From the NCBI RefSeq assembly GCF_000421485.1, contig NZ_ATXC01000001.1, positions 124,001 through 188,000 of the forward strand: a DNA stretch of 64,000 nucleotides, read 5' to 3'. The notes beneath the pieces are model-generated. The model saw only the letters and a program-made list of their open reading frames with translations. It ran no database searches and was not told the origin of the DNA. Shown here piece after piece: positions 23,541-41,570 of this stretch. Made by a program: the position numbers and the translations under genes. The first letter of the stretch is position 1; each line of letters opens with the position of its first letter. Source of the DNA: Desulfurobacterium sp. TC5-1 (GTDB taxonomy: Bacteria; Aquificota; Aquificia; Desulfurobacteriales; Desulfurobacteriaceae).

Positions 23541-24919
23541 GGTGAGAAACCTTTTATAATTTTTTCTGCTTCATCTTTTGTCTTAATAAGTCCTAAAGCC
23601 TGGAATTCAAGCAGTTTTTCCTTTATTTTACCTACAGCTTTTCCTTCGTTCAAGCCTTTTATTTCCATAATCTCTTTTCCTGAAAGGAGCGGTTTCAGGT
23701 TTTTTACCTTTAAGTAGAAATTTATTACTTTTTCATTTAAAAACCAGATGAATTCTTCTGAGATTTTTTCCATTTTTTCAGAAGTAGCTTTGAAATCGGC
23801 GATGCTGTGAACGGCAATTAGAGGTAGTAGATTACCTGCTTCTTTAATGAATCTGTACGTTGCTTTTTGGGTAAGTTTTCTTTCTTTAAAAAGTTGAAAC
23901 AGAAAAAAAGGTCTTAGATGTAATTTTATAATTTTTTTCACTGCGGAAGCGGTTTTTTTCCCAAATCCAAGGTATAAAAGTCTCTTTTCGGCCAATTCTC
24001 CACCTACTTTGTCGTGGTTGTAAAATGTTAAATAGCAGTTTTTTTTCTTTACTGTGATGGGTTTGCCTATGTCATGTAAAAGGGCGGTTAAAATTAGCAG
24101 TTCTCTTCCGGATAAGCTGCCTGAAAAACGAGCGTTTTCTATTTCTTTAACAATTTTTGGGTTTAGCGTTTCTGGCTTGTTTAAAATGGTGCAGATGTAT
24201 TCAACTGTTTTCATTGTATGGGTTATCAAAGAGTACTGATGTAAGCCTGATGGTGGGATTTTCTCTTCTTCTGCCAGTTCTGGAAAGAGGATATAAAGAA
24301 CATTAAGTTTTCTCATGTCTATAAAGGCTTTGTATGCTTCTTTTATTTTAGTGATTTTTATAAGTTCTTCTCTCACTCTTTCAACAGGTTCTCTTTCCAA
24401 TAATTTGCCGTATTTGTACGTACCTTTTATAAACCCTTCGGAGTATGAGAATCTGAATCTGTTTTTGATCCTTATCCCTCTCAGGATTCTGACAGGATCT
24501 TTCTGGAGAGAAGAAAAGGATACGGGTTTAAGTATTTTTGATGATATGTCTTTTAATCCGCCTGAGGGGTCAATGATTTTTTTATCTTTCAGACTGTAAG
24601 CGATGGCATTAATTGTAAAGTCTCTTGATAGGAGATCTTCTTCAAGGGTTTTCTGAATTTCCGTTATGTCAATTCTGGTGTTGTCAAGATAAAGAGTAAA
24701 TACAGGTTTTTCCTTAGTATAAAGGAAGCCTTTTTGTCCGGTTGATTTTTGTATGCAGTCAACGGTTTTATTAAGTGGAGATGAAACAACGATATCTATG
24801 TCTTTTAGTTCCTTTTCACCTAAAAGGGAATCTCTTACTGCACCGCCGACAACGTATCCGTTCCTGATACAGGATAAGATTTCTTTAATCTTCTCTTCAA
24901 CTCTATGGAGTTTTTCCAT
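23537..24919 (-). CDS. CCA-type tRNA nucleotidyltransferase with HD domain
   Basis: A protein of 460 residues of the class II polymerase-beta family. GGAVRDSLLGEKELKDIDIVV has the GG motif and the metal-binding DxD; RDFTINAIAY and EPVERVREEL are the flexible-loop and nucleotide-template motifs. An HD domain (LLHDIGKP) follows at about 285-390. In Aquifex the CC- and A-adding activities are on separate proteins; whether this is one of a split pair or a full CCA enzyme cannot be decided by eye. Confidence 0.85.
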   Translation of the reverse strand: MEKLHRVEEKIKEILSCIRNGYVVGGAVRDSLLGEKELKDIDIVVSSPLNKTVDCIQKSTGQKGFLYTKEKPVFTLYLDNTRIDITEIQKTLEEDLLSRDFTINAIAYSLKDKKIIDPSGGLKDISSKILKPVSFSSLQKDPVRILRGIRIKNRFRFSYSEGFIKGTYKYGKLLEREPVERVREELIKITKIKEAYKAFIDMRKLNVLYILFPELAEEEKIPPSGLHQYSLITHTMKTVEYICTILNKPETLNPKIVKEIENARFSGSLSGRELLILTALLHDIGKPITVKKKNCYLTFYNHDKVGGELAEKRLLYLGFGKKTASAVKKIIKLHLRPFFLFQLFKERKLTQKATYRFIKEAGNLLPLIAVHSIADFKATSEKMEKISEEFIWFLNEKVINFYLKVKNLKPLLSGKEIMEIKGLNEGKAVGKIKEKLLEFQALGLIKTKDEAEKIIKGFSP

Positions 24920-24986
24920 TTTCTCTCCACCTTTAGAGTAAGATGATATTATAAGCCTGAATCGTTATGGTAGAGAGGTTAAAGTT

Positions 24987-25658
24987 ATGATTCTTGTGGA
25001 AGTTAACAATTTGAAGAAAGTTTACGAAACTGAAAGTGATAGAGTAGAGGCACTAAAGGGTGTCAACCTTAAGTTAAATAAGGGTGAATTTGCCCTGATA
25101 ATGGGAGCTTCAGGTTCGGGGAAAAGTACGCTTCTTCATATACTTGGAACTCTCGATAGACCCACTTTAGGGACTGTACTTTATAGGGGTAAAGATCTAT
25201 TTTCACTTGATGAGAGAGAGCTTGCACTTTTCAGGAATAGAAATTTGGGATTTGTATTTCAATTTCACTATTTGATAATGGAGTTTACCCTTATTGAGAA
25301 TGTGATGGCTCCTCTTTTAATTGGTGGTGTAGATGTTGACGAGGCGAGGGAAAAGGCTGTTGAGATGTTGAAAATGGTCGGTTTGGGACATAGATTAACT
25401 CATAAACCGTTCGAGATATCTGGCGGTGAGCAACAGAGAACAGCAATTGCCCGTGCTCTTGTTAACTCTCCGGAACTTGTTCTTGCCGATGAACCTACTG
25501 GGAACCTTGATTCAAAAACTTCAGAATCTGTTCTTTCTCTTATGGCTGAACTTAACAGAGAAACTGGAACTACTTTTTTCATTGCCACCCATAATCATGA
25601 GCTGGAAAAATTTGCCGACAGAATATACTTTATAAAAGACGGTGTTATTAATATTTAA
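24987..25658 (+). CDS. ABC transporter ATPase of the LolD/MacB type
   Basis: A protein of 223 residues with Walker [10 protein letters not shown], the Q-loop [11 protein letters not shown], signature ISGGEQQR, Walker [13 protein letters not shown] and the switch histidine in THNHELE. The [11 protein letters not shown] segment is typical of LolD, which powers release of outer-membrane lipoproteins, or of related MacB/FtsE ATPases. No permease is adjacent; the next gene is clpC. The permease must be encoded elsewhere. Confidence 0.85.
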
Positions 25659-25669
25659 GAGAGGTGTAT

Positions 25670-28132
25670 ATGTTTGAGAAGTTTACAAAAAAAGCAAGAC
25701 AAATTGTAATAAAAGCGAAGGAAGAGGCAGTCGTTTTAAGAACACCTTATCTTGGAACGGAACATTTACTCCTTGTTTTACTGAAGGAGGACGAAATTGT
25801 TAATCAGATAATCAGCAAGTATAACATTTCAAAGATTCGTATCCAGGAAATGGTAATTCATCAAATTCAACCTTCCCCGGAAGAGGTGGATGTTAATACC
25901 ATTGCTTTTACTACAGAGGCAAGACGTGCTCTTGAACAGGCAGTTGAAGAGGCGAAAATACTTGGCCATGCTTATGTCGGACCGGAGCACATATTTATAG
26001 GTCTTGCAAAAGAAAGGCTTGGTCTTGCAGGTAGAATTTTAAGAAGTTACGGCCTTGATCATTATACGCTCCGTAGGGAGGTAACGGCCATACTTAAAGG
26101 TATTCTTGGCAGAGCAAAGACATCAAGAAAATCCAGCACACCTAATCTCGACAAGTACGGAAGAGATTTAACAAAACTTGCCGAGGAAGGAACTCTTGAT
26201 CCTGTTATTGGTCGTGACAAGGAGATAGAGAGAGTAATTCACATTCTTGCGAGAAGACGTAAAAACAATCCTGTTTTGATAGGTGAACCAGGTGTTGGAA
26301 AAACGGCAATAGTTGAAGGATTGGCTATAAGAATAGCTGAAGGAGGTGTTCCGGAAAAGCTGAAGGATAAAAGAATCGTTTCTCTTGACATGGCTTCTCT
26401 TATTGCTGGAACCAAATACAGGGGACAGTTTGAAGAGCGCTTAAAGGCAGTTGTTAAGGAACTTGAAAACAATAAGGATGTAATTCTTTTCATCGATGAA
26501 CTTCATACACTGGTTGGTGCTGGTGCTGCTGAAGGTTCTATGGATGCTTCAAACATTCTAAAGCCTTCCCTTTCAAGGGGCGAAATACAGGTTATAGGTG
26601 CTACTACTCTTGATGAATATAGAAAATACATAGAGAAAGACGGTGCACTGGAAAGAAGATTTCAGCCTGTTTTAGTTGAAGAGCCTTCAATGGAAGAGAC
26701 GGTTGAGATTTTAAAAGGTTTGAAGCCGAAATTTGAAGAATTCCACAACGTGAAGATAACCGATGAGGCGATAGAAAGGGCTGTTAAGTTAGCAGTTCGT
26801 TACATAAATGATAGGAAACTTCCCGATAAGGCTATAGATATTATTGACGAAGCCGGTGCAAAAGCTCAGTTGAGAGTGGGAACAAAGCCTGCAGAAATAA
26901 AGAAAATAGAAGAGAGGTTGCAGGCGATAAAAGCCCTCAAAGAGGAAGCTCTTGCAATGGCTGAGTATGAGAAGGCTCACGAATACAAGCAGGAGGAGAT
27001 GAAGTTAACTGCCGAGCTTGAAGAGTTAAATAAGAAATGGCTCGTTTCCCGTAAGAGTGAGAAGCCTGTAGTAGATGTTCTTGAAATAGAAGAGATTGTA
27101 GCACTCTGGACAGGTATCCCGGTTAATCAGATACATGAAGCTGAAAGGGAAAAACTACTAAGGCTTGAATCTGAGCTTCATAAAAGGGTGGTTGGTCAGG
27201 AAGAAGCTGTCAGTGCAGTTGCGCGAGCCATAAAACGTTCAAGACTCGGCATCAGGACTAACCTTAACAGGCCTATAGGTGCTTTCCTCTTCCTTGGACC
27301 GACAGGTGTTGGTAAGACAGAACTTGCTAAAACACTTGCAGAAGTTTTATTTGGTGATGAGAAAGCGATGGTTAGAATTGATATGTCTGAATATATGGAG
27401 AAGCACACTGTTTCAAGACTTATAGGTGCGCCTCCGGGATATGTTGGTTATGAAGAGGGTGGTCAGCTTACAGAGATTGTAAGGAGGAAGCCGTACAGCG
27501 TTATTCTCCTTGACGAGATAGAAAAAGCCCATCCAGACGTTCTTAACATACTGCTCCAGATAATGGAAGACGGTCGATTGACGGACGGTCTTGGTAGAAC
27601 AGTTTCTTTCACAAATACGATACTTATAATGACTTCAAACCTTGGTGCAAAGCACCTTGTTTCCGCTCAAAAAGGTCTTGGCTTTGATACAGGCACAGAA
27701 GAAGATATGGAAAGAAAGGCTTTTGAGAGAATGAAATCTTTTGTTATGGATGAAGTGAAGAGATACTTTAAACCTGAGTTTATAAACAGGCTTGATGAGA
27801 TAGTTGTTTTCCATCCTCTTACAAGGGAAGATGTTAAAGAGATTGTCAGGAAGCAGGTTGATAGGCTCAATGAAGAGTTGAAAGAGAGGAATCTAAAAGT
27901 TCATGTTACCAATAAGTTTGTAAATTACATCGTTGATAGGGAGTTCCGTAAAGAGTATGGGGCAAGAACCATAAGAAGAGCTATTCAATCTTTAATAGAG
28001 GACAGGTTAACAGACGAAATTCTTTCTGGAAGGTTCCTTGAAGGTGGTGAAGTGGTATTTGATGTAACACCTAAAGGAAAGATAAGTGTGAGAGAGAAGA
28101 AGAAGAAGAGAGCAACAGCACAGATAAGGTGA
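25670..28132 (+). CDS. clpC: ClpC-type AAA+ unfoldase
   Basis: A hexameric ATPase that feeds substrates to ClpP, 820 residues from the ATG at 25670 behind GAGAGG (an in-frame GTG lies six bases earlier). Clp N-repeats occupy 1-140; the first AAA+ domain has GEPGVGKTA; a middle region with a UVR-like helix ([14 protein letters not shown]) marks ClpC and not ClpB; the second AAA+ has GPTGVGKTE, ending with the D2-small domain. No mcsA/mcsB or ctsR lies nearby, so control differs from Bacillus. Confidence 0.93.
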
Positions 28133-28136
28133 TTTT

Positions 28137-29387
28137 ATGAGGTTATTGAACTTCCTGCTGTTGATTTTTCTTTCTCTTGTTTTTGCCTCATGTGGCGGTT
28201 CTCCAGATTCTGCCGTTTATCCTTTTGCTGAAAGGTTTGGTGTTGGAATTCCACCGGGTGGAAATGATTTCTACGGTGTAAATGGAACCGTTGTTTGGGT
28301 GGAACTTGAGAATTACATACTAAACAAAACAGGAGAAATAGACTATTACCGCACAAATGTTAGGGATTACAATGAAACGGCTTTTGAACACTTGCAGAGG
28401 GAGATTTCGGATGTCAGGTATCTTGTTTATTGGGTTACGAAAGATTGGAATTCTGAATGGATAAACACCTCTCTCTTACAGGAAGCTATGGATGGAGGAA
28501 AAATTCCTGTTTTTATGTTCTGGTACTTCGGTGATTCTCTCGATGTTATGCCTACGCAATCGGACATCGATGCTTACTATGCAAAAGTTAATCAGTTGAA
28601 AGACTTTCTTTCAAAGCTAAGAGGGATAAAACTTGTGGCTGTTGAGCCAGAGTTTAACAAAGGGGTTGTTGAAACCCATCAGAGTGAATTTGCGGGAATT
28701 TTTGAGAAAGCTATAGATATATTAAAGTCCGTTCCTGATACCTACTGCGGTCTCATTCTCACTGACACTGGTAGCCGGAGCGGTGTTTATCCAAAGTGCG
28801 GTTACGCAACATGTTCCCTTGGTGATAAGTATGAGTGGAGCCGATTTGACGATTTAATTTATCAGTTAAAAGATAAGATTGATTTTATTGGATTTCAGGA
28901 GATGCTTTCTCAGTTTACGAGGGATCCTGAAAACCCTTCTGCTGTAAAGGTTTATAATTACGACACACTTGGTCTTAAAGATATAAGACGGAGAATAATA
29001 AACTTCGCCGATTTTCTCTATGGTAAGTGGCAGAAACCTGTAATGTTAGGTTATACAACAGTTGCTACAGGTACGTGGAACGATACCAACGGTAATGGAA
29101 CCATAGATGATGGTGAGTATGATCCTCAGGGATGGAATTCAGTTGCAGAGGAAGTTTATCTGCAGATTTTCGGAAATAAAACGGAGCTTTTCAATCATCA
29201 TATATTTATGGAAGGTTTGATGGCGGTTTTTGACAATCCCCATCACGATCTTAACGGTTATCAGTTTTTCCTTAACAACGAGTATCACATTGGAATAGTA
29301 ATAAGCAATACTACAGACGGGAGTTTCGACTCTCACATAGACGGAGATATTTCGTTTAAGGTGGATCTGGATTCTATCTTCCATTAG
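28137..29387 (+). CDS. Secreted lipoprotein, glycan-hydrolase-like, with EF-hand-type loop
   Basis: A protein of 416 residues. Lipoprotein signal with lipobox VFASC at about 14-18. The body alternates hydrophobic strands and helices in a TIM-barrel-like way, with acidic residues at strand ends (VAVEPEFNK, IDFIGFQEML), suggesting a glycoside-hydrolase-like fold. DTNGNGTIDDGE at 316-327 is a canonical EF-hand loop (ligands D316, N318, N320, D324, E327), so calcium binding is likely. I do not recognise the family. It starts four bases after clpC and its end overlaps the end of the exopolysaccharide operon by 14 bases. Confidence 0.6.
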   Translation: MRLLNFLLLIFLSLVFASCGGSPDSAVYPFAERFGVGIPPGGNDFYGVNGTVVWVELENYILNKTGEIDYYRTNVRDYNETAFEHLQREISDVRYLVYWVTKDWNSEWINTSLLQEAMDGGKIPVFMFWYFGDSLDVMPTQSDIDAYYAKVNQLKDFLSKLRGIKLVAVEPEFNKGVVETHQSEFAGIFEKAIDILKSVPDTYCGLILTDTGSRSGVYPKCGYATCSLGDKYEWSRFDDLIYQLKDKIDFIGFQEMLSQFTRDPENPSAVKVYNYDTLGLKDIRRRIINFADFLYGKWQKPVMLGYTTVATGTWNDTNGNGTIDDGEYDPQGWNSVAEEVYLQIFGNKTELFNHHIFMEGLMAVFDNPHHDLNGYQFFLNNEYHIGIVISNTTDGSFDSHIDGDISFKVDLDSIFH

Positions 29388-31155
29388 AAGCTAACGTTAA
29401 GTAGAAGATTTGTGAAGAGGCTGGTTTAATTTCTTTAAGTGTAATGTCCGTGTATGTCTGGTAGTTCTTTACCTCTGGAGAGGGCTGACCGACTATCTCT
29501 GACACTGCTTTTACCACGGATATACCCTTTTTGTTCCAGAAAATTCTAACCTTCATTTTTTTTACCGTTTCTGGATTCCTGTTTACGATTTTAAGGGAAG
29601 CTGCTTTTCCGTTAGATGATATAGTCAGTTTGGTATTTAATCCGTAAAAAAGTCTAACTTTTTCCGCTATCTTTTTGCAGGTTGTAAAGGTTGTATTTTT
29701 AGATTTCTCTATGAATGATGATAAAAGGGATTGTTCTTTAAGTCCAATTTCTGTGTGAAGGGAGAGTATATACACGCTATTTAGGGTATGGATAAAGGAT
29801 TCTTCTTTCAGGAATTCCTCTGCTGATAGCTTGTTAGATTTTATCGTGAAGTAAAAATCGTCATTTCCATTTCTTGGTATAACTACAATACCATTTTTCA
29901 TATGTGGATAGATTGACGTCTTTTCTGCGGAGGACAGGAGATATCTGTAATCGGTCTTTTTCAGGAGTTCTGTCAGATGTTCCGGAATACTTTCTTCCGG
30001 TGGTCGAAAACCTGTTACCTTTTTTCCTGATAATTTTTCCAAAATTTCTTTTGATTTTTTTAATCCTGTTTCTATATCTGCAATTTTTAGCTTTGTTAAT
30101 GGTATGTGTTCCGTGAAGTGGGAGCCAATTTCAATATTTTTTGATTTTAGCAAATTGGATGAAACTCTGTTTGCTAAAGATGACAGAATAAAAGCTGTCC
30201 CTTTTATTCTGAATTTTCTCAGCGTATTTTCGAAATGTTTAAGATTTTCTATTTCATATTCGGCATCAGTTTCTATTACTGTAGGATTTTCTATGTCTAT
30301 AAACGGGAATGGGACGGCTATACTTTTTTCTGATAGAAAGTTATAGATGTTTTTTAGAAGAGTCATAAAGTATTTATCCTGTCCTTTTATATCTTTCAGG
30401 CTATAGTACGGGAATGTTGTGTAGACAAAGCTGCCGTTTCCGTAAAATCCGTAAAACATCAGCGGGGTTGTTCCAATCGTTTTGTGCGGTAGCATACTCC
30501 ATGAACATGGAAGTAGACTTGAACGGGCTTGAGCGCTTGAAAATAAGGGCATTGGATCGTATAGAACTATTTCGGCCCGTTTTCCATGGAGAGAAAAGGT
30601 TATAGGGTTAAGGATTTTAGGAGCCACAAAAATTTTTTCTCCCGGAGAAAAGATGTTTTTAAATTTTGCATCGCTAAATTCCTCAATTATCGGTTTAACT
30701 TTGTTGAAATTTTCGTCATAGAACCCGGAAAACCATGTTATTAAAATGTGTCCGCCATTTTTAAGGTATTCCTTTAGTGCCTTTCTATGTTCCTTGCTTA
30801 TGGAGGGGGAATCTATAACAAAAACGATGGGATAGTTTTTTAGATCTTCTATCTTAATAATGTCGGATTTGATGTTTAGCTTCAGTAGGTCTTCTTTTAC
30901 TTCAGAGAGTCTGTTTTTGTACTTTGTTTTTGATGATACTTTTGAATACCAGTTTTGACTTTCGTTCAGAAATAGAATTCCTACTTTACGGTTTTGTCTA
31001 TGGCCTATAGGTATGCTTCCCCTTACTCCAAGGAGATTATATACAACTACGGTGCTGCTTATGGAAAACATGAATACTACAAGTAGAGCGGATGGGAGGT
31101 AAAAGATGCTAAAGATCCTTTCTTTTAAAGAAGATGTATTTTTTTCCCGATTCAA
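29374..31155 (-). CDS. Membrane-anchored polysaccharide deacetylase (NodB fold)
   Basis: A protein of 593 residues: one N-terminal membrane helix (about 18-42), an alpha/beta domain to about 280 with an ITWFSGF segment resembling a glutamine-amidotransferase-like fold, then a NodB-type barrel with D297 (VIETDAEYE), the metal pair H346 and H350 (GSHFTEH) and RPPEE at 384-388, and a C-terminal beta domain. The motifs are variant but keep the Asp-His-His metal set. The TTG start follows GAGGAGG by six bases inside the upstream small gene. As the last gene of the locus it probably trims acetyl groups from an exported polysaccharide. Confidence 0.72.
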   Translation of the reverse strand: MNREKNTSSLKERIFSIFYLPSALLVVFMFSISSTVVVYNLLGVRGSIPIGHRQNRKVGILFLNESQNWYSKVSSKTKYKNRLSEVKEDLLKLNIKSDIIKIEDLKNYPIVFVIDSPSISKEHRKALKEYLKNGGHILITWFSGFYDENFNKVKPIIEEFSDAKFKNIFSPGEKIFVAPKILNPITFSLHGKRAEIVLYDPMPLFSSAQARSSLLPCSWSMLPHKTIGTTPLMFYGFYGNGSFVYTTFPYYSLKDIKGQDKYFMTLLKNIYNFLSEKSIAVPFPFIDIENPTVIETDAEYEIENLKHFENTLRKFRIKGTAFILSSLANRVSSNLLKSKNIEIGSHFTEHIPLTKLKIADIETGLKKSKEILEKLSGKKVTGFRPPEESIPEHLTELLKKTDYRYLLSSAEKTSIYPHMKNGIVVIPRNGNDDFYFTIKSNKLSAEEFLKEESFIHTLNSVYILSLHTEIGLKEQSLLSSFIEKSKNTTFTTCKKIAEKVRLFYGLNTKLTISSNGKAASLKIVNRNPETVKKMKVRIFWNKKGISVVKAVSEIVGQPSPEVKNYQTYTDITLKEIKPASSQIFYLTLASNGR

Positions 31156-31297
31156 GAAGAACCTCCTCGTAGGTTATGCTCTCTTTACCGCTCTTTGCTC
31201 CCCTTGCTTTAAATGCGAAGTAGGAAAGGACACCCAGGATGAGGGTTAGAATTATGAGAAACAGTATGACCAGGGCGGTAAAGGCAACAATGTCCAT
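31109..31297 (-). CDS. Small one-helix membrane protein of the exopolysaccharide locus
   Basis: A protein of 62 residues with a single membrane helix at about 5-30 and a basic, acidic-mixed cytoplasmic tail. It lies between the GT2 synthase (one-base overlap) and the deacetylase (47-base overlap). Position and topology recall the PgaD/HmsS partner of PgaC synthases, but it has one helix, not two, and no clear sequence match. Function inferred from context only. Confidence 0.55.
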   Translation of the reverse strand: MDIVAFTALVILFLIILTLILGVLSYFAFKARGAKSGKESITYEEVLLESGKKYIFFKRKDL

Positions 31298-32610
31298 TAT
31301 ATCTTCCCCTTCCTTTCAAGTTTTCCCCAGCTCATTTCAAGGTTGAACCATTCTTCTATCGTTGCAAAAACCTTTACGATGTTTAAAAACGTAATGTAGA
31401 AAATTCTGTATGCCGGTACGTACAACATGTATCTAAGGCTTTCTCCTGTAAATATAAGACAGAAAAGTGCGGCGGCACCGTCTATGATTGTAAGCAGAAC
31501 CCACCAGTTCACAATGGTCCACGAGAGGCCGTAAGTGGCTGCTATAAATATCAGAAATATGTTGGCGAATATGTCCATGAAAGGCCACCAGATGCCTTCC
31601 AGCTGCATATACCAGAGTGTAAAGGATGCAATTGGATTTTCTTTAAAGTTCCACAACAAGTGTGAATGCTTTCTGATTGACTGTAATATTCCCCTTGTCC
31701 ATCTGTATCTCTGTTTTATCAAAGGTATAACTTCTTCAGGTGCTTCTGTCCACGCCATTGCGTCTGGCTCGTAGTCTATCTTGAATCCTGCCGTTATCAG
31801 CTTTAACGTTAAGTCACAGTCTTCTGCAAAGGTATCACTGTCGTAATATCCTACTTTTTTTAAGGCATCCTTTTTGAACATTCCTATAGGTCCGGGAATT
31901 ATGTTTACGGCTCTCATAAAACCCTGGCCACTCCTTGACATGTTAAGCCCTTCTATGTACTCTAACTGTTGAAGTTTGGTAAGTATTTTATCGGCGTTTG
32001 ACACTTTTACAGCACCGGCAACGGCAGCAACATGGGGATCTTTAAAATGTCTTACCATTTTCTTTAGAACATCTCTTTCCAGTTTTGAGTCTGCATCAAC
32101 ACACATTACAATGTTGTAGGTGGCTCTTTCTATTCCATAGTTGAGAGCTCTTGCCTTTCCGCCGTTTTTCTTTTTGAAGACTCTTACAGTTACATTGCCG
32201 TAGTTTTTTGCCATGCTGCTTGCTATATGGTAGGTTTTGTCTTTCGAGCCGTCGTCAATGACGATTACTTCGTACTTTGGATAGTCTAACTTTATAAGGG
32301 ATAATAGAGACTGTCTTATCGTTACTTCTTCGTTGTACGCAGGGACTATTATTGAGATGCCCGGATAAAAGTCTTTTCCTTCCAGAGCCGTTTTTGCCGT
32401 AGAATATCCGTTCAGGAAGGAAAGCCACAGGAATCCGAGGTACCTCATAACGATGAGCGTTAGAAAAGAAATCAGAATAATACTTCCTATTTTCATTACG
32501 ACGCTTGTGAATTGATAAAAAAGGTGTTCAGTTATCAAAAAATTGATGGCAAGAATAGATGCAAAAAACAGGAGCGTGCCAGCAGCAACAGCGATCTTTT
32601 TAAAATCCAT
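31297..32610 (-). CDS. Processive family-2 glycosyltransferase, PgaC/HmsR/IcaA-like
   Basis: An inner-membrane polysaccharide synthase of 437 residues. Two N-terminal helices (about 7-27, 39-62), GT-A domain with IVIDDGS (D119/D120), DAD at 172-174, catalytic FAED (E263/D264) and QRYRW at 300-304, the signature of processive beta-glycan synthases, then helices near 325-415. NGGKARALNYG is shared with poly-N-acetylglucosamine synthases. With the neighbouring NodB protein this favours an amino-sugar polymer. No PilZ domain is fused, so any cyclic di-GMP control must come from a partner. Confidence 0.88.
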   Translation of the reverse strand: MDFKKIAVAAGTLLFFASILAINFLITEHLFYQFTSVVMKIGSIILISFLTLIVMRYLGFLWLSFLNGYSTAKTALEGKDFYPGISIIVPAYNEEVTIRQSLLSLIKLDYPKYEVIVIDDGSKDKTYHIASSMAKNYGNVTVRVFKKKNGGKARALNYGIERATYNIVMCVDADSKLERDVLKKMVRHFKDPHVAAVAGAVKVSNADKILTKLQQLEYIEGLNMSRSGQGFMRAVNIIPGPIGMFKKDALKKVGYYDSDTFAEDCDLTLKLITAGFKIDYEPDAMAWTEAPEEVIPLIKQRYRWTRGILQSIRKHSHLLWNFKENPIASFTLWYMQLEGIWWPFMDIFANIFLIFIAATYGLSWTIVNWWVLLTIIDGAAALFCLIFTGESLRYMLYVPAYRIFYITFLNIVKVFATIEEWFNLEMSWGKLERKGKI

Positions 32611-35600
32611 TAACCATCACCTCGCAGGTTAAATACCAGTATCTGCTTTCGGATAGGGTAGTAACTCTTAAGTTGCTGAATGTTAGTTTAGCATTCCACC
32701 GTTTCTGTCTGGCTTTTAAGGTTATCTCGCCAAGCATAAGTTTTTCTTTAAATGAATACCCGACATCAACTTCCGGTTCTATTTTCAATCCTCCGTATAA
32801 AATAGTCTTTTTTAGTCCTATCAGGGTACTGTCAAAAAAGTGTGGTGAGTAGTATTCCTCTGTTTCCTTTGAATCTGCCATATACCAGCCTTTGAGAACT
32901 GGTGAGATGCTATTCTTACTGTCGGCTAACAGGAATTGAAAAATTGTGGAGATGTTACCGTCGTTTATGTATCCTGTCTTGATTTCACCCCACAGTTCTT
33001 TATTACTTGCCTTTCTATACAGGGTTCCTTTTACAAAGGTTCCAATTCTGTTTTTTTCTGCTGCTGTCGTTGATAGTCTCTCTTTTGCTATCGATTCTTG
33101 AAGCAGGGAAACGGTTAGACCATTTTCTTTATTGAAATAGGTTATGAATGGATAGATGTTTTTATAGTAGTTTGAGATATCAATTGTTAATCCGTACCAA
33201 AATGTGGAGTTGATTATTTTACCTGAGACTTCAAATCCGGTAAATGTGCCGTTGTTTTTTAGATAGTATCCTTCTATTCTGCCTGAGAGGTTATCTTTCG
33301 CCAATCTGTATCCTGCCGTGAAAAAACTTACACTGTTTGAGTCAAACAAACTGTTTCCGTAGAACTGGCCTTTTATCTTTTCTGATTCCTGCTTTTCCTG
33401 TTGGCCAATCTTTCCAGTGGGAACTTCGGGTATATTTAGAGTAAGGTTGTCTAATAATGATAGTTTTAAGCTAAATCTATCTATCAACTTTTCATCTAAC
33501 TCAATTTTTTGTTGTTCTATTTTAGGATTATTTTTTTCTGAGATTTTGTGAGTTGCATTTTCTCTGGTCTTGGACTTCTGATTCTCTATTGTCTTTAACA
33601 ACCTCTTTGCTTCTCCTATAATTTTGTCCAGATCGTATTTTTTCTGGGCTTTCTGCCATGTCTCTTTTACGATAAGGAACTTTTTCGGTGCAATTTCTTC
33701 TAATACAAGTGTCTTTAGTCCTTCGTCTGAATGGGTTGGAGATGAATACTGCTGCCAGAATTGAATTTTATATTTATTATCTGCCTTTGATTTAAGTTCA
33801 ATGTTACTGATATTAACTTTTATGTAGCTATTTTCTCTGAAGAGGTTTTTCTTCTTCCATATCCAGTACGGTGTTTTTACACTCTTTGCGTAGAAAGAGA
33901 CATATTTTTCAAAGTTCTTCTCTTCCCAGGCTTTCTTCCATTGATTAAGAAATGCGAGTATAGTTTCAGGTGGTTGTAGAGCTACAATTCTTTTAAGTAT
34001 TTTTTTCGCTTCTTCCTTTTTCCCACTATTTGCCAGACAGCGGCCGTAATGGAAAAGTACCTCTATGTCATTTCTGTACCAGCTAAGGAGAAACCACTCT
34101 GCAGCAGCTTCTTCGTAGTTTCCGAGAATTTCTAAAGTTTTCGCGAGACCGTATATGGCTTTTGGGTCTTCCGGATAGAAGGTTAAATATTTCTCGTAGG
34201 CTTTTGCCGCTTCCTTAATAAAGCCACCGTTTTCGAGTCTTTCTGCTAACTCTTTCCATTTTTCTATCTCTGTGTTTTTGCCAGTGGTTTCTACTGATTG
34301 TTGTTCCATTTTAAATCTTGGTGTTTCTGATAATATTTTTGCTTTCAGGTTAATCGCTTTTCTATTGTTGGGATCCGTTTTAATGATCTCTTCTAATACC
34401 TGGAGTGCAGCTTTTGGGAATCCTGCCCAGTAGTAGTTTTTAGCGAGAATAAGTTTTGCCTTACTCGTGTTAATCTTATTCGCATAGAATTCGAGGTATG
34501 AAAAGCCTTTCTGGTAATTCCCAAGTTTTATATAGATTTCGCCTATATCTCTAAAAACATTGATGTCTTCAGGGTTTAATTCTGAATATTTTAAGTAGTA
34601 TTTAAGTGCCTTTTTGTACTTTCCTATTTTAAGGTATATATCGCCTATCCGCCTGTAGTAGTACGGTTTAGGTTCTTTCTTTATTAGATTCAGGTATTTT
34701 TTAAGAACAGGTTTGAAATTTCCTGTAAGTAGCATTATTTCTTCTTTTATCTCTTCATCATCAGGATTTTCCCTTTGTGCCATTTTGAAGTATTGGAGGG
34801 CTTTGTCTTCTGCGTTTTGCCATAGGTACAGATATCCAAAGAGTTTGTGTACTTCTGCTTTTTCCTGTTCTGTTAATTCTGGCATTTTCTCTATATTTTT
34901 AAGGAGCTTTCTTGCCTTATCAAATTCAGAATTCCATTCAAGAAGCCGAATTTTCATTAATAGGTAGGATAGTTTTTTGGTTTTTTTGAATAGGCGGTCG
35001 TACAATTCTTCTGCTTCGTCAAGTTTTCCTGACCATGAGAGATATTTGGCAAGTGTTACAAGTGCCTCTTCACTGTTGGGATGCTTTTGGAGATAACTTT
35101 TAAGTAGTTTTATTGCTTCTTCTTTTTTGCCGGACGTGTAGAGAAGGTAGGTAAGTTGTAGGCAGTTTTTCCATGTTGGATTTTTGGAGTACGCATTCAT
35201 AAGTTGTTTAATGAGTTTTTCTCTTTTTTCTTCTATCTTTTTAAAAAGTTCTTTCCATGTGTTTCCTGGAAATTTTCTTTTCGCAACAAGAAGAAGTTGT
35301 TCTGCTTTTTCAAGTTCACCGTAATTAAGGAGTGTTTCAAATGCAAGTTTATAGCTCTGTCCATCGGGGTAATACTTTAGTAAGAGATTCATATATTTCT
35401 TTGAGCAATCGTAATTTCCCGCCCAATTACATATTTTCAGTTTTAGTTCTATATAGTTTCTATCTTTTTTGTTTTTGTATTCCTCTAAGATGTCTTCGGC
35501 TTCTTTTAGATGATTACTCCATGCAAGGGCCATGGCAAGTTTTATGATGTTGCTCTGTTTTAATTTTAAATTAAGTTCTTTGTGAACTTTATAGAGCAAT

Positions 35601-35932
35601 AGTGCATCTTTGTACGACTGTTTTTCCCAGAGTTTTTCAGTGGCCTCGTTTATTTCTGGTTTGATATTTATTTTCCTACACATATCAGTGAATTCTTTAA
35701 GAAGTTTTAACCGTTCTTTTATTCCTGTTTCTTTAACAAGGGAAGGATTCCGTTTTTCTGCTAATATTATGAGGCGTGTCGCGTTTGTTATATCCATTTT
35801 CATTATGCTTTTATTTGCTCTGAGCAAGATAAGTTTGGTGTCATTTTGAAGCTTACCTGTTGCGTTTGGAGTTCCAGCTTTTGCCTGTGTACAGAGAAGC
35901 AGAACTATTGTTATAAGGATGTTTTTAAGCAT
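32600..35932 (-). CDS. TPR, NTF2-like and beta-barrel exporter (PgaA/HmsH-like)
   Basis: A protein of 1110 residues from the ATG at 35932 behind GGAGG; the upstream in-frame start is rejected because it buries the signal peptide. Signal at 1-19, then about 600 residues of tetratricopeptide-like helical pairs. At about 655-760 there is a segment (KKAWEEKNFEKYVSFYAKS) resembling the NTF2-like/Cds6 domain. A linker and a strand-rich C-terminal region at about 854-1110 with aromatic alternation, ending in Phe, look like an outer-membrane barrel. Layout matches PgaA/HmsH exporters except for the NTF2-like insert. It overlaps the upstream gene by eight bases. Confidence 0.75.
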   Translation of the reverse strand: MLKNILITIVLLLCTQAKAGTPNATGKLQNDTKLILLRANKSIMKMDITNATRLIILAEKRNPSLVKETGIKERLKLLKEFTDMCRKINIKPEINEATEKLWEKQSYKDALLLYKVHKELNLKLKQSNIIKLAMALAWSNHLKEAEDILEEYKNKKDRNYIELKLKICNWAGNYDCSKKYMNLLLKYYPDGQSYKLAFETLLNYGELEKAEQLLLVAKRKFPGNTWKELFKKIEEKREKLIKQLMNAYSKNPTWKNCLQLTYLLYTSGKKEEAIKLLKSYLQKHPNSEEALVTLAKYLSWSGKLDEAEELYDRLFKKTKKLSYLLMKIRLLEWNSEFDKARKLLKNIEKMPELTEQEKAEVHKLFGYLYLWQNAEDKALQYFKMAQRENPDDEEIKEEIMLLTGNFKPVLKKYLNLIKKEPKPYYYRRIGDIYLKIGKYKKALKYYLKYSELNPEDINVFRDIGEIYIKLGNYQKGFSYLEFYANKINTSKAKLILAKNYYWAGFPKAALQVLEEIIKTDPNNRKAINLKAKILSETPRFKMEQQSVETTGKNTEIEKWKELAERLENGGFIKEAAKAYEKYLTFYPEDPKAIYGLAKTLEILGNYEEAAAEWFLLSWYRNDIEVLFHYGRCLANSGKKEEAKKILKRIVALQPPETILAFLNQWKKAWEEKNFEKYVSFYAKSVKTPYWIWKKKNLFRENSYIKVNISNIELKSKADNKYKIQFWQQYSSPTHSDEGLKTLVLEEIAPKKFLIVKETWQKAQKKYDLDKIIGEAKRLLKTIENQKSKTRENATHKISEKNNPKIEQQKIELDEKLIDRFSLKLSLLDNLTLNIPEVPTGKIGQQEKQESEKIKGQFYGNSLFDSNSVSFFTAGYRLAKDNLSGRIEGYYLKNNGTFTGFEVSGKIINSTFWYGLTIDISNYYKNIYPFITYFNKENGLTVSLLQESIAKERLSTTAAEKNRIGTFVKGTLYRKASNKELWGEIKTGYINDGNISTIFQFLLADSKNSISPVLKGWYMADSKETEEYYSPHFFDSTLIGLKKTILYGGLKIEPEVDVGYSFKEKLMLGEITLKARQKRWNAKLTFSNLRVTTLSESRYWYLTCEVMVNGF

Positions 35933-37271
35933 CCTTTTCCCTCCAGAAAAGGTCAACAGCGTCAGTACTTTCGATAAGTTCGATTTCATTTGCGTATGTT
36001 TTGAATCTATTAAAAAGTATTTCTGCCTGCACTTTCCACATATCGTAGGCTATAACATGAATTTTTCCTTCTTTTACAAATACTTTATCTGTGTCTCTTA
36101 AAAATTCGGCCAATTTTTTTGAGTCAACTCTTTCATTTGTTTTAAATACAAAGTAACTAAAGAAAAGTCTATGGTTAAGAAGCGTGTTTACGGTTTCTTT
36201 AATTTCCTTTAGAGATGAGCAGGCTATTTTATTGTTCTTAAAGACTTCACCGTAGTGGTTTGCTACATATCTTGAAAGTAATCCCTCTATGGTTCCTGTG
36301 TATTCTTCAGTTGAAAAAGGAACAGAAAAGGTCAGGCACCCCAATTTGGATGCCTGACTTCTTTCCATATTTTTCAAAAATACCGGCGATATGTATATAA
36401 TCGGAAATTTAAGATTTTTGTTTTCTTTAAGCTTGCATATAGAAAAATCGTTCTGTTTACTGAACGGATAGTATATTGTTATGTCGTATTCTGAGGATAT
36501 TTTCAAAAGTGCCTCTTCAGGTGTCTTGGCGGTTTCAAGTTTACAGTTTTTTGAAAGGATATACCGATGTAATTTAATAATGTATTCATCAGAGCTAATA
36601 AGAAGGATATTTGCCGGTTTATCTTTTGTATTTGAGAATGTTTCTATGAGCGTTATGCCTTTTTTTTCTTTGTCTATGGAAGCCCTGTAGATTGTAAGCT
36701 CAAAAGAACGAGTCTGTTTTTTGTGTATTTTGAAGCTTCCTTCTTTTTCCTCCTCAACTATTAACGATAAGTCAAAGAGTTCTATTAAGAATGGAGCTTC
36801 AGGCCTACTCTCTATGTTTTTTGTGGAGCGTCTAAAGGAAACGACCAGTTTGGAATTGATGGATAGCCTATCTGTTAAAAATTTAACAAAGTCAGAGATG
36901 TATAGTTCTTCACCTGGTGAAAATAGAGTATCAAGCCTTACAAAATAGATGATATCTGGTCTTGTTTCGTTGACAATCTTCTCAAGTTCTATCTTTAAAA
37001 AGTCAATGCCATACATACTTTTGAGTTTTGTAAAATCTTCTACTGTAAAGAACAGGGTTAAGTTTCCAAGCTTTTCTTTATCTATTCCAAGGGTTTCTGA
37101 TAAATTTTCAACGGTGGGTATTACAATTTCTTCAGGGAAGTTGAGAAATACAGTAATCTTCTTTCCTTCCTTGATACATGAAAGAATAAACAGAAAGTTT
37201 GCCACTATAGAGCCGGGAGCTTTGTCCTCTATTATTACTCTTTTTGCGTCTTCAAATATTTTGCACAGCAT
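35925..37271 (-). CDS. Putative cyclic di-GMP receptor, BcsE-like three-domain protein
   Basis: A soluble protein of 448 residues. Residues 1-175 look like a RecA/KaiC-like fold without a P-loop (KAPGSIVANF where Walker A would be). Residues 219-320 read as a receiver-like domain (NILLISSDEY, FPIIYIS) without a convincing phospho-site. Residues 355-445 resemble a degenerate GGDEF: RDTD at 392-395 sits where the I-site RxxD lies, and EGKIH replaces GGDEF five residues later. This order parallels BcsE and recalls PelD. First gene of the exopolysaccharide unit, start behind GGGAG. Domain calls are by eye; receptor function is inferred. Confidence 0.55.
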   Translation of the reverse strand: MLCKIFEDAKRVIIEDKAPGSIVANFLFILSCIKEGKKITVFLNFPEEIVIPTVENLSETLGIDKEKLGNLTLFFTVEDFTKLKSMYGIDFLKIELEKIVNETRPDIIYFVRLDTLFSPGEELYISDFVKFLTDRLSINSKLVVSFRRSTKNIESRPEAPFLIELFDLSLIVEEEKEGSFKIHKKQTRSFELTIYRASIDKEKKGITLIETFSNTKDKPANILLISSDEYIIKLHRYILSKNCKLETAKTPEEALLKISSEYDITIYYPFSKQNDFSICKLKENKNLKFPIIYISPVFLKNMERSQASKLGCLTFSVPFSTEEYTGTIEGLLSRYVANHYGEVFKNNKIACSSLKEIKETVNTLLNHRLFFSYFVFKTNERVDSKKLAEFLRDTDKVFVKEGKIHVIAYDMWKVQAEILFNRFKTYANEIELIESTDAVDLFWREKDA

Positions 37272-37744
37272 GTATTACTCCCGGTTTTAAAAATTTGTTA
37301 ATGCTGATTAATAAGTTTATCATAATTTATGAAGGATTTTTAAAGCTTAGGATTTGAATGACAGCCATCTTTCTAAAGAATATCTGCTTATAATGTTAAA
37401 GGAAGGTAATTTGCCCGGTAAGGGTGTTATTATTAATGGTGCTATTTGAAGAAAAATTGTTGACAAACATTGAAATTTTACACCACTACTGGCAAAAGCT
37501 GGATATACGTAGTTTAACTCCTTGGATTTTGCAACTAAATCTGTTTTTGTGATTTATAAAATGCGGTTAAATGATTGTTTAGCTTCAGTATTTGTTTTTC
37601 ACTGTGTGGATTATTGCTTTTTCTGTAGAATATTTTGCGATAGCCTGCAAAATACATCTGAGGAGTTTTTTAAGGTAGTGTGTTTGCACTGTTGCTGTAA
37701 TGTTAAAATTTAAGATAATTCCTGCGTGTTATTACGGAGAGGCT
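37272..37744. other. 473-base AT-rich divergent intergenic region, no supported gene
   Basis: This separates the exopolysaccharide operon (minus) from the rsmE operon (plus). Only short frames occur, for example 37436-37552 and 37522-37713; neither has a convincing ribosome site or a recognisable product. I see no riboswitch signature for cyclic di-GMP, no clear -35/-10 pair for the minus operon and no repeat. A TTGACA at 37460 has no -10 at the right distance. Its length suggests it carries control sites for the exopolysaccharide operon. Confidence 0.5.
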
Positions 37745-38464
37745 ATGAGAAGATTTAAAGTTGATGGTATAAAGGGTAATGTTGCCTATTTGAGGGGTCA
37801 GGAAGCAAGGCATGTTTTGAAGGTTTTGAGGCTTCGTCCTGGTGACGAGATTGTTATCTTTGACGGGAGCGGTAAAGAATATCTTGCTGTTATAGAGGCT
37901 TCATCTACTCAGTCAGTGCGGCTTAAAGTTCTTGAAGAGATAACCATAAACAGGGAAAGTCCTTTAAAAACAAAGCTTTTTATGGGGCTTACAAACAGAC
38001 TTCAAAAGTTTGAGCTTGCACTTCAAAAAGCGACGGAGCTTGGTGTTACGGAAATTGTTCCTGTGATATGTCAGCGTTCTGCTTTTGGTGAGAAAGTTAA
38101 AGATTGGAGCGGGAAATTGAGGCGCTGGAATGAGATTGTTTTAAATGCTTCAAAACAGTGTGGACGGGCTGTTATTCCACCTGTTAAAGAACCTGTTAAG
38201 CTTCGTGATGTTGAAGATAATTCTGATTTAAGGTTTGTTCTCTGGGAAAGAGGTGGAAGAAGTTTTGAGAGTTTTTCCGATGTGACTGCAACTTCTGTTT
38301 CCCTTGTCGTAGGTCCTGAAGGAGGACTTGACGAAAAAGAGGTTGACTTTTTAAAAGATAGAGGTTTTCACGTTATTCACCTTGGAAAGAGAATACTCAG
38401 GGCGGAAACAGCTGCTATTGTAGGACTTGCTCTTGTTCAGTATATATGGGGAGACCTTAAGTAG
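37745..38464 (+). CDS. rsmE: 16S rRNA m3U1498 methyltransferase
   Basis: A SPOUT-class methyltransferase of 239 residues. The ATG at 37745 follows GGAGAGG and gives the normal N-terminus (MRRFKVDG, then the PUA-like [18 protein letters not shown]). The knot region is conserved: [16 protein letters not shown] and [18 protein letters not shown]. It leads an eleven-gene plus-strand run with tight spacing. Confidence 0.93.
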
Positions 38465-38466
38465 GT

Positions 38467-39018
38467 ATGAAGAATCAGGAGGTTTTGAATTTAAATTTTA
38501 ACGGTAGAAAAGTAGTGGTTGTTTATGGTGATATTACAGAGGAGAGAGTTGATGCTGTTGTAAATCCTGCCAATTCCTCTTTGAAGCACGGTGGTGGAGT
38601 TGCAGGAGCTATCGTCAGAAAGGGTGGAAAGATTATTCAGGAGGAAAGCAACAGAATAGGCTATCTTCCAGTTGGAAAAGCGGTTGCTACAACGGCTGGA
38701 AATCTTCCTTGCCGCTTTGTTATCCATACTGTTGGTCCTATCTGGGGTGAGGGTAATGAGGAGCAGAAGTTAAGGAGTGCTGTCAGGTCTGTTCTTGATC
38801 TTGCTTCGGATTTGGGTCTTTCGTCAATCTCTATTCCCGCCATAAGCACGGGGATCTTTGGATATCCAAAGAGGGAAGGCGTTTCTGTCATAGTTGATGA
38901 GGTTTTCAGATGGCTTTCTGATAATCCTCTTGCGCCTTTGAAAGAGATAAGATTTATTTCAATAGATAGAGAAACGATAAATCTGTTTGAAGAAGCAGTT
39001 ACAGATAGAAAAATTTAG
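38467..39018 (+). CDS. Macro-domain ADP-ribose-binding protein
   Basis: A protein of 183 residues, a single macro domain. [25 protein letters not shown] holds the adenine-contact aspartate and the asparagine, GGGVAGAI the diphosphate loop, and [10 protein letters not shown] the second loop. Such proteins deacetylate O-acetyl-ADP-ribose or remove ADP-ribose from proteins. It starts two bases after rsmE. Specific substrate unknown. Confidence 0.92.
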
Positions 39019-39057
39019 TTTAAAATAACCTCTAAATTAAAATCTGGAGAGTTAACC

Positions 39058-40275
39058 ATGCCGAACTTTCAGTTTGCACGTATTGATAGGCTTCCCCCTT
39101 ATGTTTTTGCTGTTGTTAACGATTTAAAGACGAAGTTAAGGCGAGCGGGGGAAGATATTGTTGACCTTGGTATGGGCAATCCTGATCTTCCCACACCAAA
39201 ACATATTGTTGATAAATTGTGTGAAGCTGCAAGGAATCCACGTAACCATAGATATTCACAAACGAAAGGCCTCTTTAAATTGAGAGAGGCACTTGCCCTC
39301 TGGTACAAGAGAAAGTACGACGTTGAGCTTGACCCGGAAACTGAGGTTATAACGACTATTGGTTCAAAAGAAGGGCTTGCACATCTTGCACTGACCCTGG
39401 TCAATCCTGGCGATGTTGTCATGGTGCCGACTCCTGCCTATCCTATTCATCCTTACTCTTTCATTATTGCAGGTGGTGATGTTAGAAGCATTCCACTTCT
39501 TACTGATGACGGATTCGATGAAGATGCTTTTTTAGAGTCTATTATAAAAGCTTACAAGGAAAGCTGGCCAAGGCCAAAAGTTCTGCTTCTAAACTTTCCC
39601 CACAATCCGACGACAGCCTGCGTTGATATAAAGTTTTTTGAAAAAATTGTTGATTTTGCCAAGGAAAATAACCTTCTACTTATCCAGGATCTTGCCTATT
39701 CTGAAATCTCTTTTGATGGATATGTTCCGCCAAGTATTTTTCAAGTTAAAGGAGCAAAAGATGTTGCGGTAGAGTTCTATTCTCTTTCCAAAACTTACTC
39801 TATGGCAGGCTGGAGGGTCGGCTTTGCCGCCGGTAATAAAGATGTTATACATGCCCTTTATAGAATGAAGAGTTACCTTGATTACGGGATGTTTCAGCCG
39901 ATTCAGATTGCAGCTATTATTGCTCTTAAAGGCGATCAATCTTGTGTTGAAGAGTACAGAAAGATATATGAAAGGCGTAGAGATGTCCTTGTTAATGGTT
40001 TAAACCGTATAGGTTGGCACGTTGAAAAACCAAAGGCTACGATGTTTGTTTGGGCAAAAATTCCTGAAAAGTTTCGTTCTATGGGCTCTCTTGAGTTTTC
40101 AAAGATGCTTCTACTGGATGGAAAGGTTGCCGTGTCACCCGGTATCGGTTTTGGCGAGTATGGTGATGAGTATGTCAGGCTTGCTCTTGTTGAGAATGAA
40201 CTGAGAATTAAGCAAGCTGTGAGAGGTATCAAGAGAGCCTTTGAAAAGTACGGACTCAGAAATATCAACGTTTAG
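39058..40275 (+). CDS. Class I aminotransferase, AlaC-like
   Basis: A PLP enzyme of 405 residues. [12 protein letters not shown] is the fold-type I N-terminal motif; PLP lysine in [28 protein letters not shown] and the arginine in [13 protein letters not shown] bind the substrate carboxylate. The N-terminus [15 protein letters not shown] is typical of the AlaC/YfdZ glutamate-pyruvate group; LL-diaminopimelate or aspartate aminotransferase cannot be excluded. It precedes hom by nine bases, an arrangement found where these genes serve aspartate-family amino acid synthesis. Confidence 0.88.
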
Positions 40276-40284
40276 GGGTAGAGT

Positions 40285-41565
40285 ATGGATTCTGTTAAGG
40301 TTGGAGTGATTGGCTGTGGAACTGTTGGTTCCGGTGTGGTAAGGATACTTCTTGAAAATGGAGATATTATTGAGGAGAGAACCGGAAGGAAGATAGAGCT
40401 TTCTATGGTTGCAGATAGAGACGTTGAGAAGGTAAAAAAGCTTGGAGTTCCGGAGGAACTTGTTGTTAATGATGGTTTTGCAGTCGTTGAATCTGATGTT
40501 GATATAGTTGTTGAGCTTATCGGTGGCACCACCGTTGCAAAGGATATTGTTGAGGGTGCTTTAAAGACTGGAAAGCACGTTGTCAGTGCAAATAAAGCGC
40601 TGTTTGCTTCTTTCGGAAAGGAGCTTTTTTCTATTGCTGCTGAAAATGGCGTTTCGATACGGTTTGAGGCAAGTGTAGGTGGGGGTATTCCTGTTATAAA
40701 GGCACTTAACGAAGGTCTGATTGCAAATAGAATAGAAAAAATCCTTGGAATTATAAATGGAACAGCAAACTTTATCCTTACAGAGATGACCACAAAGGGA
40801 ATTTCTTTTGAGGAGGCATTGAGAGTTGCCGGTGATAAAGGATATGCGGAGGCTGATCCTTCTCTTGATGTTGATGGCATAGATGCAGCACATAAGATAG
40901 CAATTCTTGCCTCCATAGCTTACGGTGGCTGGGTGACGATAGATGATGTTTATGTTAAAGGTATAAGGGATATAACACCTCTTGATATAGATTTTGCTCA
41001 TGAGTTTGGGTACAGGATAAAGCTCCTTGCAGTTGCAAAACCGGACAATGGAAAAGTTGAAGTCAGGGTGCATCCGGCCATGCTTCCGGAGAATCACATT
41101 CTTTCGTCGGTTGATGGTGTTTTTAATGCCTGTTTAATAGAAGGAGATTTTGTTGGTCCAACTCTCTATTACGGCATGGGTGCCGGTCAAAAGCCTACCG
41201 CAAGTGCCGTTGTTGCGGATATTGCTGACATAGCCTGTGGTAGGGGAAGCAGTATTCCCGTTTCACTTTTAAAGAAAGATGCAAAAATACCTGTTAAAAG
41301 GCCCGGTGAGTTTGTTTCAAGTTTTTACTTGAGGTTTACGGCTGTTGATAAACCGGGCGTTCTTGCAAAGATTTCAAGCATTTTGGGGAAATTTGACATA
41401 AGTATAAAGATGGCTCTGCAAAAGAGTATAGAGTTTAATGGTGGTGTTCCCGTTGTTATGACCACTCACGAGGCTTCTTTTGAAACGGTAAAGGCGGCAA
41501 TTTCTGAGATTGATGAGCTTGATGTTATAGTGAAGCCAACATTCTTGTGTATGATAGAAGAGTAA
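40285..41565 (+). CDS. hom: Homoserine dehydrogenase
   Basis: Reduces aspartate semialdehyde to homoserine on the way to threonine and methionine. 426 residues: Rossmann domain with GVIGCGTVGSGVV, the catalytic domain with ASVGGGIPVIKALNEGL, NGTANFILTEM and GYAEADPSLDVDGIDAAHK, and a C-terminal ACT domain (TAVDKPGVLAKISSILGKF) expected to bind an effector such as threonine. The 3' end runs up to the queE start. Confidence 0.95.
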   Translation: MDSVKVGVIGCGTVGSGVVRILLENGDIIEERTGRKIELSMVADRDVEKVKKLGVPEELVVNDGFAVVESDVDIVVELIGGTTVAKDIVEGALKTGKHVVSANKALFASFGKELFSIAAENGVSIRFEASVGGGIPVIKALNEGLIANRIEKILGIINGTANFILTEMTTKGISFEEALRVAGDKGYAEADPSLDVDGIDAAHKIAILASIAYGGWVTIDDVYVKGIRDITPLDIDFAHEFGYRIKLLAVAKPDNGKVEVRVHPAMLPENHILSSVDGVFNACLIEGDFVGPTLYYGMGAGQKPTASAVVADIADIACGRGSSIPVSLLKKDAKIPVKRPGEFVSSFYLRFTAVDKPGVLAKISSILGKFDISIKMALQKSIEFNGGVPVVMTTHEASFETVKAAISEIDELDVIVKPTFLCMIEE

Positions 41566-41570
41566 ATTCG

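Follow-up and report, generated by a model that had tools for sequence, protein, structure and literature searches.

A recurrent exopolysaccharide locus with a putative BcsE-like cyclic di-GMP receptor in Desulfurobacterium sp. TC5-1

Results

Gene content of the locus

The 64,000-nucleotide stretch of DNA analysed here (the window) comes from the 1.65 Mb genome of Desulfurobacterium sp. TC5-1 and carries an exopolysaccharide locus of 9.6 kb with exactly six genes, set between clpC and rsmE (Table 1). Open reading frames bear out the five overlapping minus-strand genes of the original prediction, in the order receptor-like protein, TPR-barrel exporter, GT2 synthase, small membrane protein and deacetylase. 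The sixth, convergent gene is also part of the exopolysaccharide set, being homologous to the gene found after that of the deacetylase in Campylobacterota. By gene content the locus has no cellulose synthase genes and no BcsR or BcsQ. A search for known RNA families found none in 24000-42000, and hence no known c-di-GMP riboswitch there. The window also encodes, at 418-882 on the plus strand, one of the 16 GGDEF domains of the genome, a canonical one. Our literature search, limited to open-licence papers, found no description of this exopolysaccharide system.

Table 1. Features of the exopolysaccharide island, in window coordinates
Feature	Position	Strand	Basis
Island between clpC (end 28132) and rsmE (start 37700)	28133..37699		clpC and rsmE adjoin in five relatives
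Exopolysaccharide genes (n=5)	29374-37271	-	Gene order
BcsE-like putative c-di-GMP receptor, 448 aa	35925..37271	-	Orthologue profile, predicted structure, motifs
Receptor domains: degenerate RecA/KaiC-like, residues 1-~210; degenerate receiver, ~218-335; degenerate GGDEF, ~350-440			
I-site motif R392-D-T-D395	36087..36098	-	R and D invariant, 12 orthologues
Position of the second BcsE c-di-GMP motif, receiver domain: K300-N-M-E303	36363..36374	-	Profile alignment
Exporter: signal peptide, TPR repeats, NTF2-like Cds6_C, probable C-terminal beta-barrel	32600..35932	-	Pfam, orthologues
Membrane GT2 synthase, PgaC/IcaA-like	31297..32610	-	NCBIfam, alignment, orthologue identity
62-aa single-helix membrane protein	31109..31297	-	Orthologue profile, E 3.4e-16
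Membrane-anchored deacetylase, TTG start	29374..31155	-	Pfam, motif alignment
Putative secreted lipoprotein glycosidase, convergent	28137..29387	+	Profile E 8.2e-30, phmmer matches in 8 loci

Synthase, exporter, small protein and modifying enzymes

The GT2 is the only glycosyltransferase of the locus and has the motifs of a processive enzyme (D120, D172/D174, ED263-264 and QRYRW 300-304). Its best family is NCBIfam PgaC_IcaA, with 223 bits, under the 422-bit cut-off, and its identity to its orthologues is 45-57%. When the products were compared as single sequences with BcsE, PgaA, PgaB, BcsF, PgaD and PgaC using HHalign, only the GT2 and PgaC matched. The exporter most likely starts at the ATG at 35932, which gives 1110 aa, a signal-peptide-like N-terminus (MLKNILITIVLLLCTQAKA) and an 8-nt overlap with the receptor gene. 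It is matched by Pfam TPR families and by Cds6_C, and its Campylobacterota orthologue has a weak match to PgaA. The Cds6_C (NTF2-like) domain lies between the TPR region and the barrel (residues 677-776, window 33662-33961); to our knowledge PgaA, PelB and BcsC do not normally have it.

The small membrane protein had been predicted to have one helix and 49 residues. The topology holds; the length does not, since the frame is open past the start of the deacetylase gene, which it overlaps, so that the gene has 62 codons. The protein consists of one helix, a basic stretch and a cytosolic tail ending in a conserved YEEVL...YIFF, and is encoded between the GT2 and the deacetylase in all 32 loci inspected (see below). 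Single-sequence HHalign found no similarity to BcsF, and an assignment as PgaD was rejected on size and topology (one helix and 62 aa versus two helices and 137 aa). Its topology resembles that of BcsF, and the role of a BcsF-like anchor suits it better than that of PgaD. BcsF, a single-pass dimer, recruits BcsE by lending a strand of its cytosolic tail to the NTPase-like domain (PMC11470070), and we propose the same role for the 62-aa protein.

These features bear on a rival explanation of the locus, namely an ordinary Pga-type system in which c-di-GMP acts on the synthase and a small partner, as in PgaC/PgaD, and the receptor-like protein is a ligand-free scaffold or the remnant of an ATPase. 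The nearness of the GT2 to PgaC/IcaA speaks for such a system; the lack of a PgaD, in whose place stands this 62-aa, one-helix partner, speaks against it. With the receptor evidence presented below, we think this explanation unlikely.

The deacetylase gene has a TTG start (31155) preceded by GAGGAGG, and its product combines a GH42M-like (beta-galactosidase-trimerisation-like) domain at residues 57-151 with a NodB domain at 303-405. Its motifs include HxxxH (346-350), FRPP (383-386) and LSLHTE; among the residues that define CE4/NodB enzymes, D297, H346/H350, RPP 384-386 and H467 are invariant in 12 sequences, and motif 1 is unusual (ETDAEY). HxxxH, RPP and LSxH are intact in the window and in Campylobacterota. 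An assignment as PgaB was rejected, as the protein has no hydrolase domain. Its arrangement recalls PelA, in which a mixed alpha/beta domain accompanies the deacetylase part (PMC12022489). The sixth gene has no family match in Pfam or NCBIfam; PEFN and FQEM motifs suggest that its product is a putative secreted glycosidase.

Domain architecture of the receptor

On its own, the 448-residue protein has no match in Pfam or NCBIfam, and a direct Pfam search returned no BcsE, GGDEF or receiver domain. We therefore relied on an alignment of 12 receptors, the window protein and 11 from Campylobacterota, with a mean pairwise identity of 29%. For none of the 12 did the BcsE family give a Pfam match at E up to 10, or one in NCBIfam. 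Pfam recognises KaiC in one member and Response_reg in three, and the 12-receptor profile matches the receiver structure PDB 1mvo (E 1.8e-9). A Walker-A-like motif ending in GK is present in ten of the 12 and lost in the window protein and that of L034.

Structure prediction without an alignment was uninformative (pLDDT 39). AlphaFold2 with the 12-receptor alignment gave a model of middling confidence (pLDDT 77, pTM 0.55), with pLDDT near 85-92 for the greater part of the C-terminal domain, where residues 371-437 are modelled as b-a-b-b-a-b, the GGDEF core minus its first helix. The GGDEF-like C-terminal fold on which the original prediction had been staked is thus present in the predicted structure and, together with the receiver profile match and the KaiC and Response_reg members, upholds the proposed architecture of RecA-like, receiver-like and degenerate GGDEF domains. 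Compared with 350,542 PDB chains, the model had its best fold match in E. coli BcsE (9fp0_E, E 1.2e-11); 9fo7_E and 9fnn_E, also BcsE, were further matches, and the remaining top list was almost all KaiC. Whole-chain TM-scores were low (0.29), as would follow from a different packing of the three domains, and the match is accordingly read as one of domain order and fold, not as a superposition.

A profile of the 12 receptors was also aligned with six BcsE sequences in HHalign, using 200 column-shuffled decoys. The alignment runs collinearly from profile position 93 to position 437, which agrees with the BcsE domain order claimed at the outset for this protein. The degenerate GGDEF domain scored 25.2 (P 0.0006; decoy maximum 16.7) and the receiver-like and GGDEF domains together 27.2 (P 0.004; decoy maximum 22.1), values that 0 of 200 decoys reached in either case. 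HHalign's own probability for BcsE was low (3-28%), and the likeness is visible only from profile to profile.

The RxxD motifs

Exactly five columns are invariant among the 12 receptors (D167, I266, E329, R392 and D395), and two of them are the arginine and aspartate of the RDTD motif at residues 392-395, which the original prediction had already singled out. Between these two stand DT, KE, EK, NH, NN, QN, MH, ER, ST, TH, KH and KY, and middle residues so free to vary are the behaviour of an RxxD I-site. Conservation among homologues had been set beforehand as a test of this motif, and with R and D in 12 of 12 receptors a chance occurrence of RDTD was rejected. Its predicted place at an I-site is borne out by the profile alignments, in which R392-D395 falls on R415TGD of BcsE and on the I-sites of the active cyclases of the same genome (IRDSDLAFRYGGEEF versus LRDTDKVFVKEGKIH). 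An ordinary Pga-type system would leave this invariance, over 12 highly diverged receptors, unexplained.

The receiver-domain RxxD of the family is likewise in register, on R306ATD of BcsE. It is kept in the 11 other receptors, and K300/E303 is a conservative change in the window protein. The two motifs of E. coli BcsE together hold an intercalated c-di-GMP dimer, with an affinity of about 2.5 uM with the first motif alone and about 140 nM with both (PMC11470070). With K300/E303 at the second site, a weaker affinity would be expected for the window receptor and, as its Walker A has been lost as well, it may lie below that of BcsE.

Distribution of the gene set

Single-sequence scans for the synthase and the receptor found no close relatives within the genus, the family or the phylum, and it took a search with aligned distant GT2s to reach orthologous operons. 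The first orthologous GT2s (52-53% identity) came from a Campylobacterales MAG (L034) and a Chlorobiaceae-labelled MAG (L035), and the same gene set surrounds the GT2 in both. A model built from the three GT2s, those two and that of the window, then had matches in 11 of 397 sampled Campylobacterota genomes and 83 of 391 from the Chlorobi-group class of L035, and at E 1e-60 the GT2 model matched 1 of 136 Aquificota genomes. These genome counts rest on the GT2 match; gene order was inspected in 32 loci (30 fetched, L034 and L035).

The order GT2, small protein, deacetylase occurs in all 32, and in most the receptor and exporter genes precede the GT2 in that order; in L034 these two are swapped. 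A receptor was found in 11 of 11 Campylobacterota loci and 18 of 21 from the Chlorobi-group class, the remaining three (L173, L187 and L188) having no recognisable one. The five-gene order proposed for a search of other genomes thus recurs in both groups. The likeness to Pga/Hms systems first given to the last four genes is to be qualified: the set is a recurrent system of its own rather than a Pga operon plus an extra gene.

Several neighbouring genes deserve mention. In Campylobacterota loci a gene for a histidine kinase with TPR repeats stands immediately upstream of the receptor gene (L160:1837-3669), and after the operon of the Chlorobi-group class come large PAS hybrid kinase-like genes. 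GH9 genes lie upstream in that class (L035:1520-3172, L170:2148-3812) and a GH8 gene downstream of the operon in L034 (L034:6973-8172), hinting at beta-1,4-linked polymers.

Were the signal phosphorylation of the receiver domain, it could come from such histidine kinases adjoining the operon in other phyla, as with the gene just upstream of the receptor in L160 (HATPase_c, 81 bits) or the PAS-containing hybrid kinase-like gene of the Chlorobi-group class. We consider this very improbable. The phospho-acceptor aspartate is replaced in nearly all receptors, mostly by Tyr-Asn, and the window protein lacks the conserved lysine; in the Chlorobi-group class, where the hybrid kinases occur, the receptor has no receiver domain, and in the window the operon has no neighbouring kinase gene.

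Contrast between the two receptor clades

When the two receptor clades were aligned together, the C-termini of the shorter one were misplaced; each clade was therefore aligned by itself. The receptor of the Chlorobi-group class joins a KaiC domain (Pfam KaiC, 83 bits), its Walker A intact, to a degenerate GGDEF domain; it has no receiver domain, and DKKD or similar replaces RxxD. For an ordinary Pga-type system this is a favourable point, as these receptors are KaiC-like ATPases without the RxxD arginine. Their genomes are poor in GGDEF domains: there are 16 in the window genome and 9-48 in the 11 Campylobacterota carriers, versus one weak match (best E 6e-8 to 3e-18) in each of 20 genomes of this class (G137, G770 and others). 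RxxD thus occurs where canonical cyclases occur, a correlation that rests on two clades and so possibly on one evolutionary event.

The deacetylase orthologues of the class (L169-L188) have lost their catalytic motifs, with no HxxxH and no RPP, and a deacetylase-like pseudo-enzyme is thus kept class-wide in an exopolysaccharide operon. Given these losses and the cellulase-type GH9 gene upstream, the polymer of this class may differ. The gene set is thus present there in altered form.

History of the island

clpC and rsmE are direct neighbours in two congeners and in three further genera of the family. Between these two genes, the congener G001 retains a 32-codon remnant resembling the end of the sixth gene (L205:6844-6930; 53% identity, E 5e-4), so that the island was probably in the common ancestor with the window genome and was lost in G001. 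The window GT2 is nearer to those of Campylobacterota (up to 57% identity) than to those of the Chlorobi-group class, which makes exchange with Campylobacterota likely, in either direction; the tree near the window branch is weakly supported. On these comparisons, the best reading is a laterally inherited, self-contained and transferable island.

Discussion

We consider it likely, on the strength of gene order, domain architecture and motif conservation, that the locus encodes a distinct exopolysaccharide system of the synthase-dependent type, with a BcsE/BcsF-like c-di-GMP module as its gate. The hybrid character first proposed for it, a BcsE-type receptor among Pga-like genes, is supported by the locus content and the BcsE domain order. 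The 62-aa protein would tether the receptor to the inner membrane, and a strand from its cytosolic tail would join the NTPase-like domain, as in the BcsF-BcsE pair. The degenerate GGDEF domain would bind dimeric c-di-GMP through R392 and D395, with the receiver domain closing over the dimer, and the membrane-held receptor, its state so changed, would free the GT2 to polymerise processively. The product, probably a poly-N-acetylated hexosamine, would be partly deacetylated in the periplasm and leave through the TPR-barrel exporter.

Alternatively, the degenerate GGDEF domain might bind c-di-GMP but act on a target other than the synthase, such as transcription or a partner enzyme, for instance the deacetylase. 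In favour of this, E. coli BcsE has also been credited, as a proposal, with regulating polymer modification and with binding Nus factors (PMC8461298, PMC7439463); the transfer of the receptor together with the synthase, and the conserved small membrane protein encoded beside the GT2 gene, point instead to a membrane complex, and we regard a target other than the synthase as quite improbable.

More speculatively, the family may show the origin of BcsE. A KaiC-type ATPase, a dead cyclase domain and a one-helix anchor would have come together first in a mobile exopolysaccharide system, with lineages that use c-di-GMP keeping or gaining RxxD and losing ATP binding, others keeping the ATPase, and the BcsE of cellulose operons being a proteobacterial offshoot. 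This scenario is possible but doubtful.

The known exopolysaccharide systems gain a recurrent member in this locus, whose clades with and without c-di-GMP offer a natural contrast. Small orthologues from a probable thermophile would also be material for structural work on how a receptor switches a synthase.

Among known systems, the TackOD1 proteins of other Aquificota (L004:1423-3939, L005:1435-3956) likewise have a GGDEF-derived domain encoded beside a GT2 synthase: their degenerate C-terminal GGDEF (RKCD or RKSD, then NESL) comes just before the GT2 gene, possibly another c-di-GMP-related form of GT2 control. They differ in having TackOD1 instead of the NTPase-like and receiver-like domains and a GT2 only 34% identical, with no adjoining deacetylase or exporter within the stretch examined. 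The Pel system shares a degenerate GGDEF receptor with RxxD (PelD), a large TPR exporter (PelB) and a deacetylase joined to a flavodoxin/GH42M-like domain (PelA); here, however, there is no PelF-type GT4, no PelG and no GH166 domain in the deacetylase, and the receptor is soluble, without GAF or four helices. PgaABCD/IcaADBC, which make PNAG, have in common with the locus the nearest relatives of its GT2, a TPR-barrel exporter and a deacetylase, but the gene order differs, PgaD is absent, a soluble receptor and the small protein are additional, and the deacetylase has an extra N-terminal domain and no PgaB hydrolase domain.

BcsE has been described from the cellulose operons of Proteobacteria, with BcsR and BcsQ as partners. 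With BcsE-BcsF of type II (E. coli-type) cellulose secretion, the receptor shares the order of its three domains, the I-site RxxD on the degenerate GGDEF domain and the best PDB fold match, the receptor family shares the second RxxD on the receiver-like domain, and in both a short single-pass membrane protein with a cytosolic tail is the companion. Unlike BcsE-BcsF, the locus lies outside a cellulose operon, without BcsA, B, R, Q or G, its receptor is matched by no Pfam BcsE model and has K and E at the second site, and some members of the family keep a KaiC-like Walker A. That the architecture and binding motifs of BcsE occur in distant phyla, in a system for another polymer, suggests that c-di-GMP control by a soluble receptor with RecA-like, receiver-like and degenerate GGDEF domains is a portable module.
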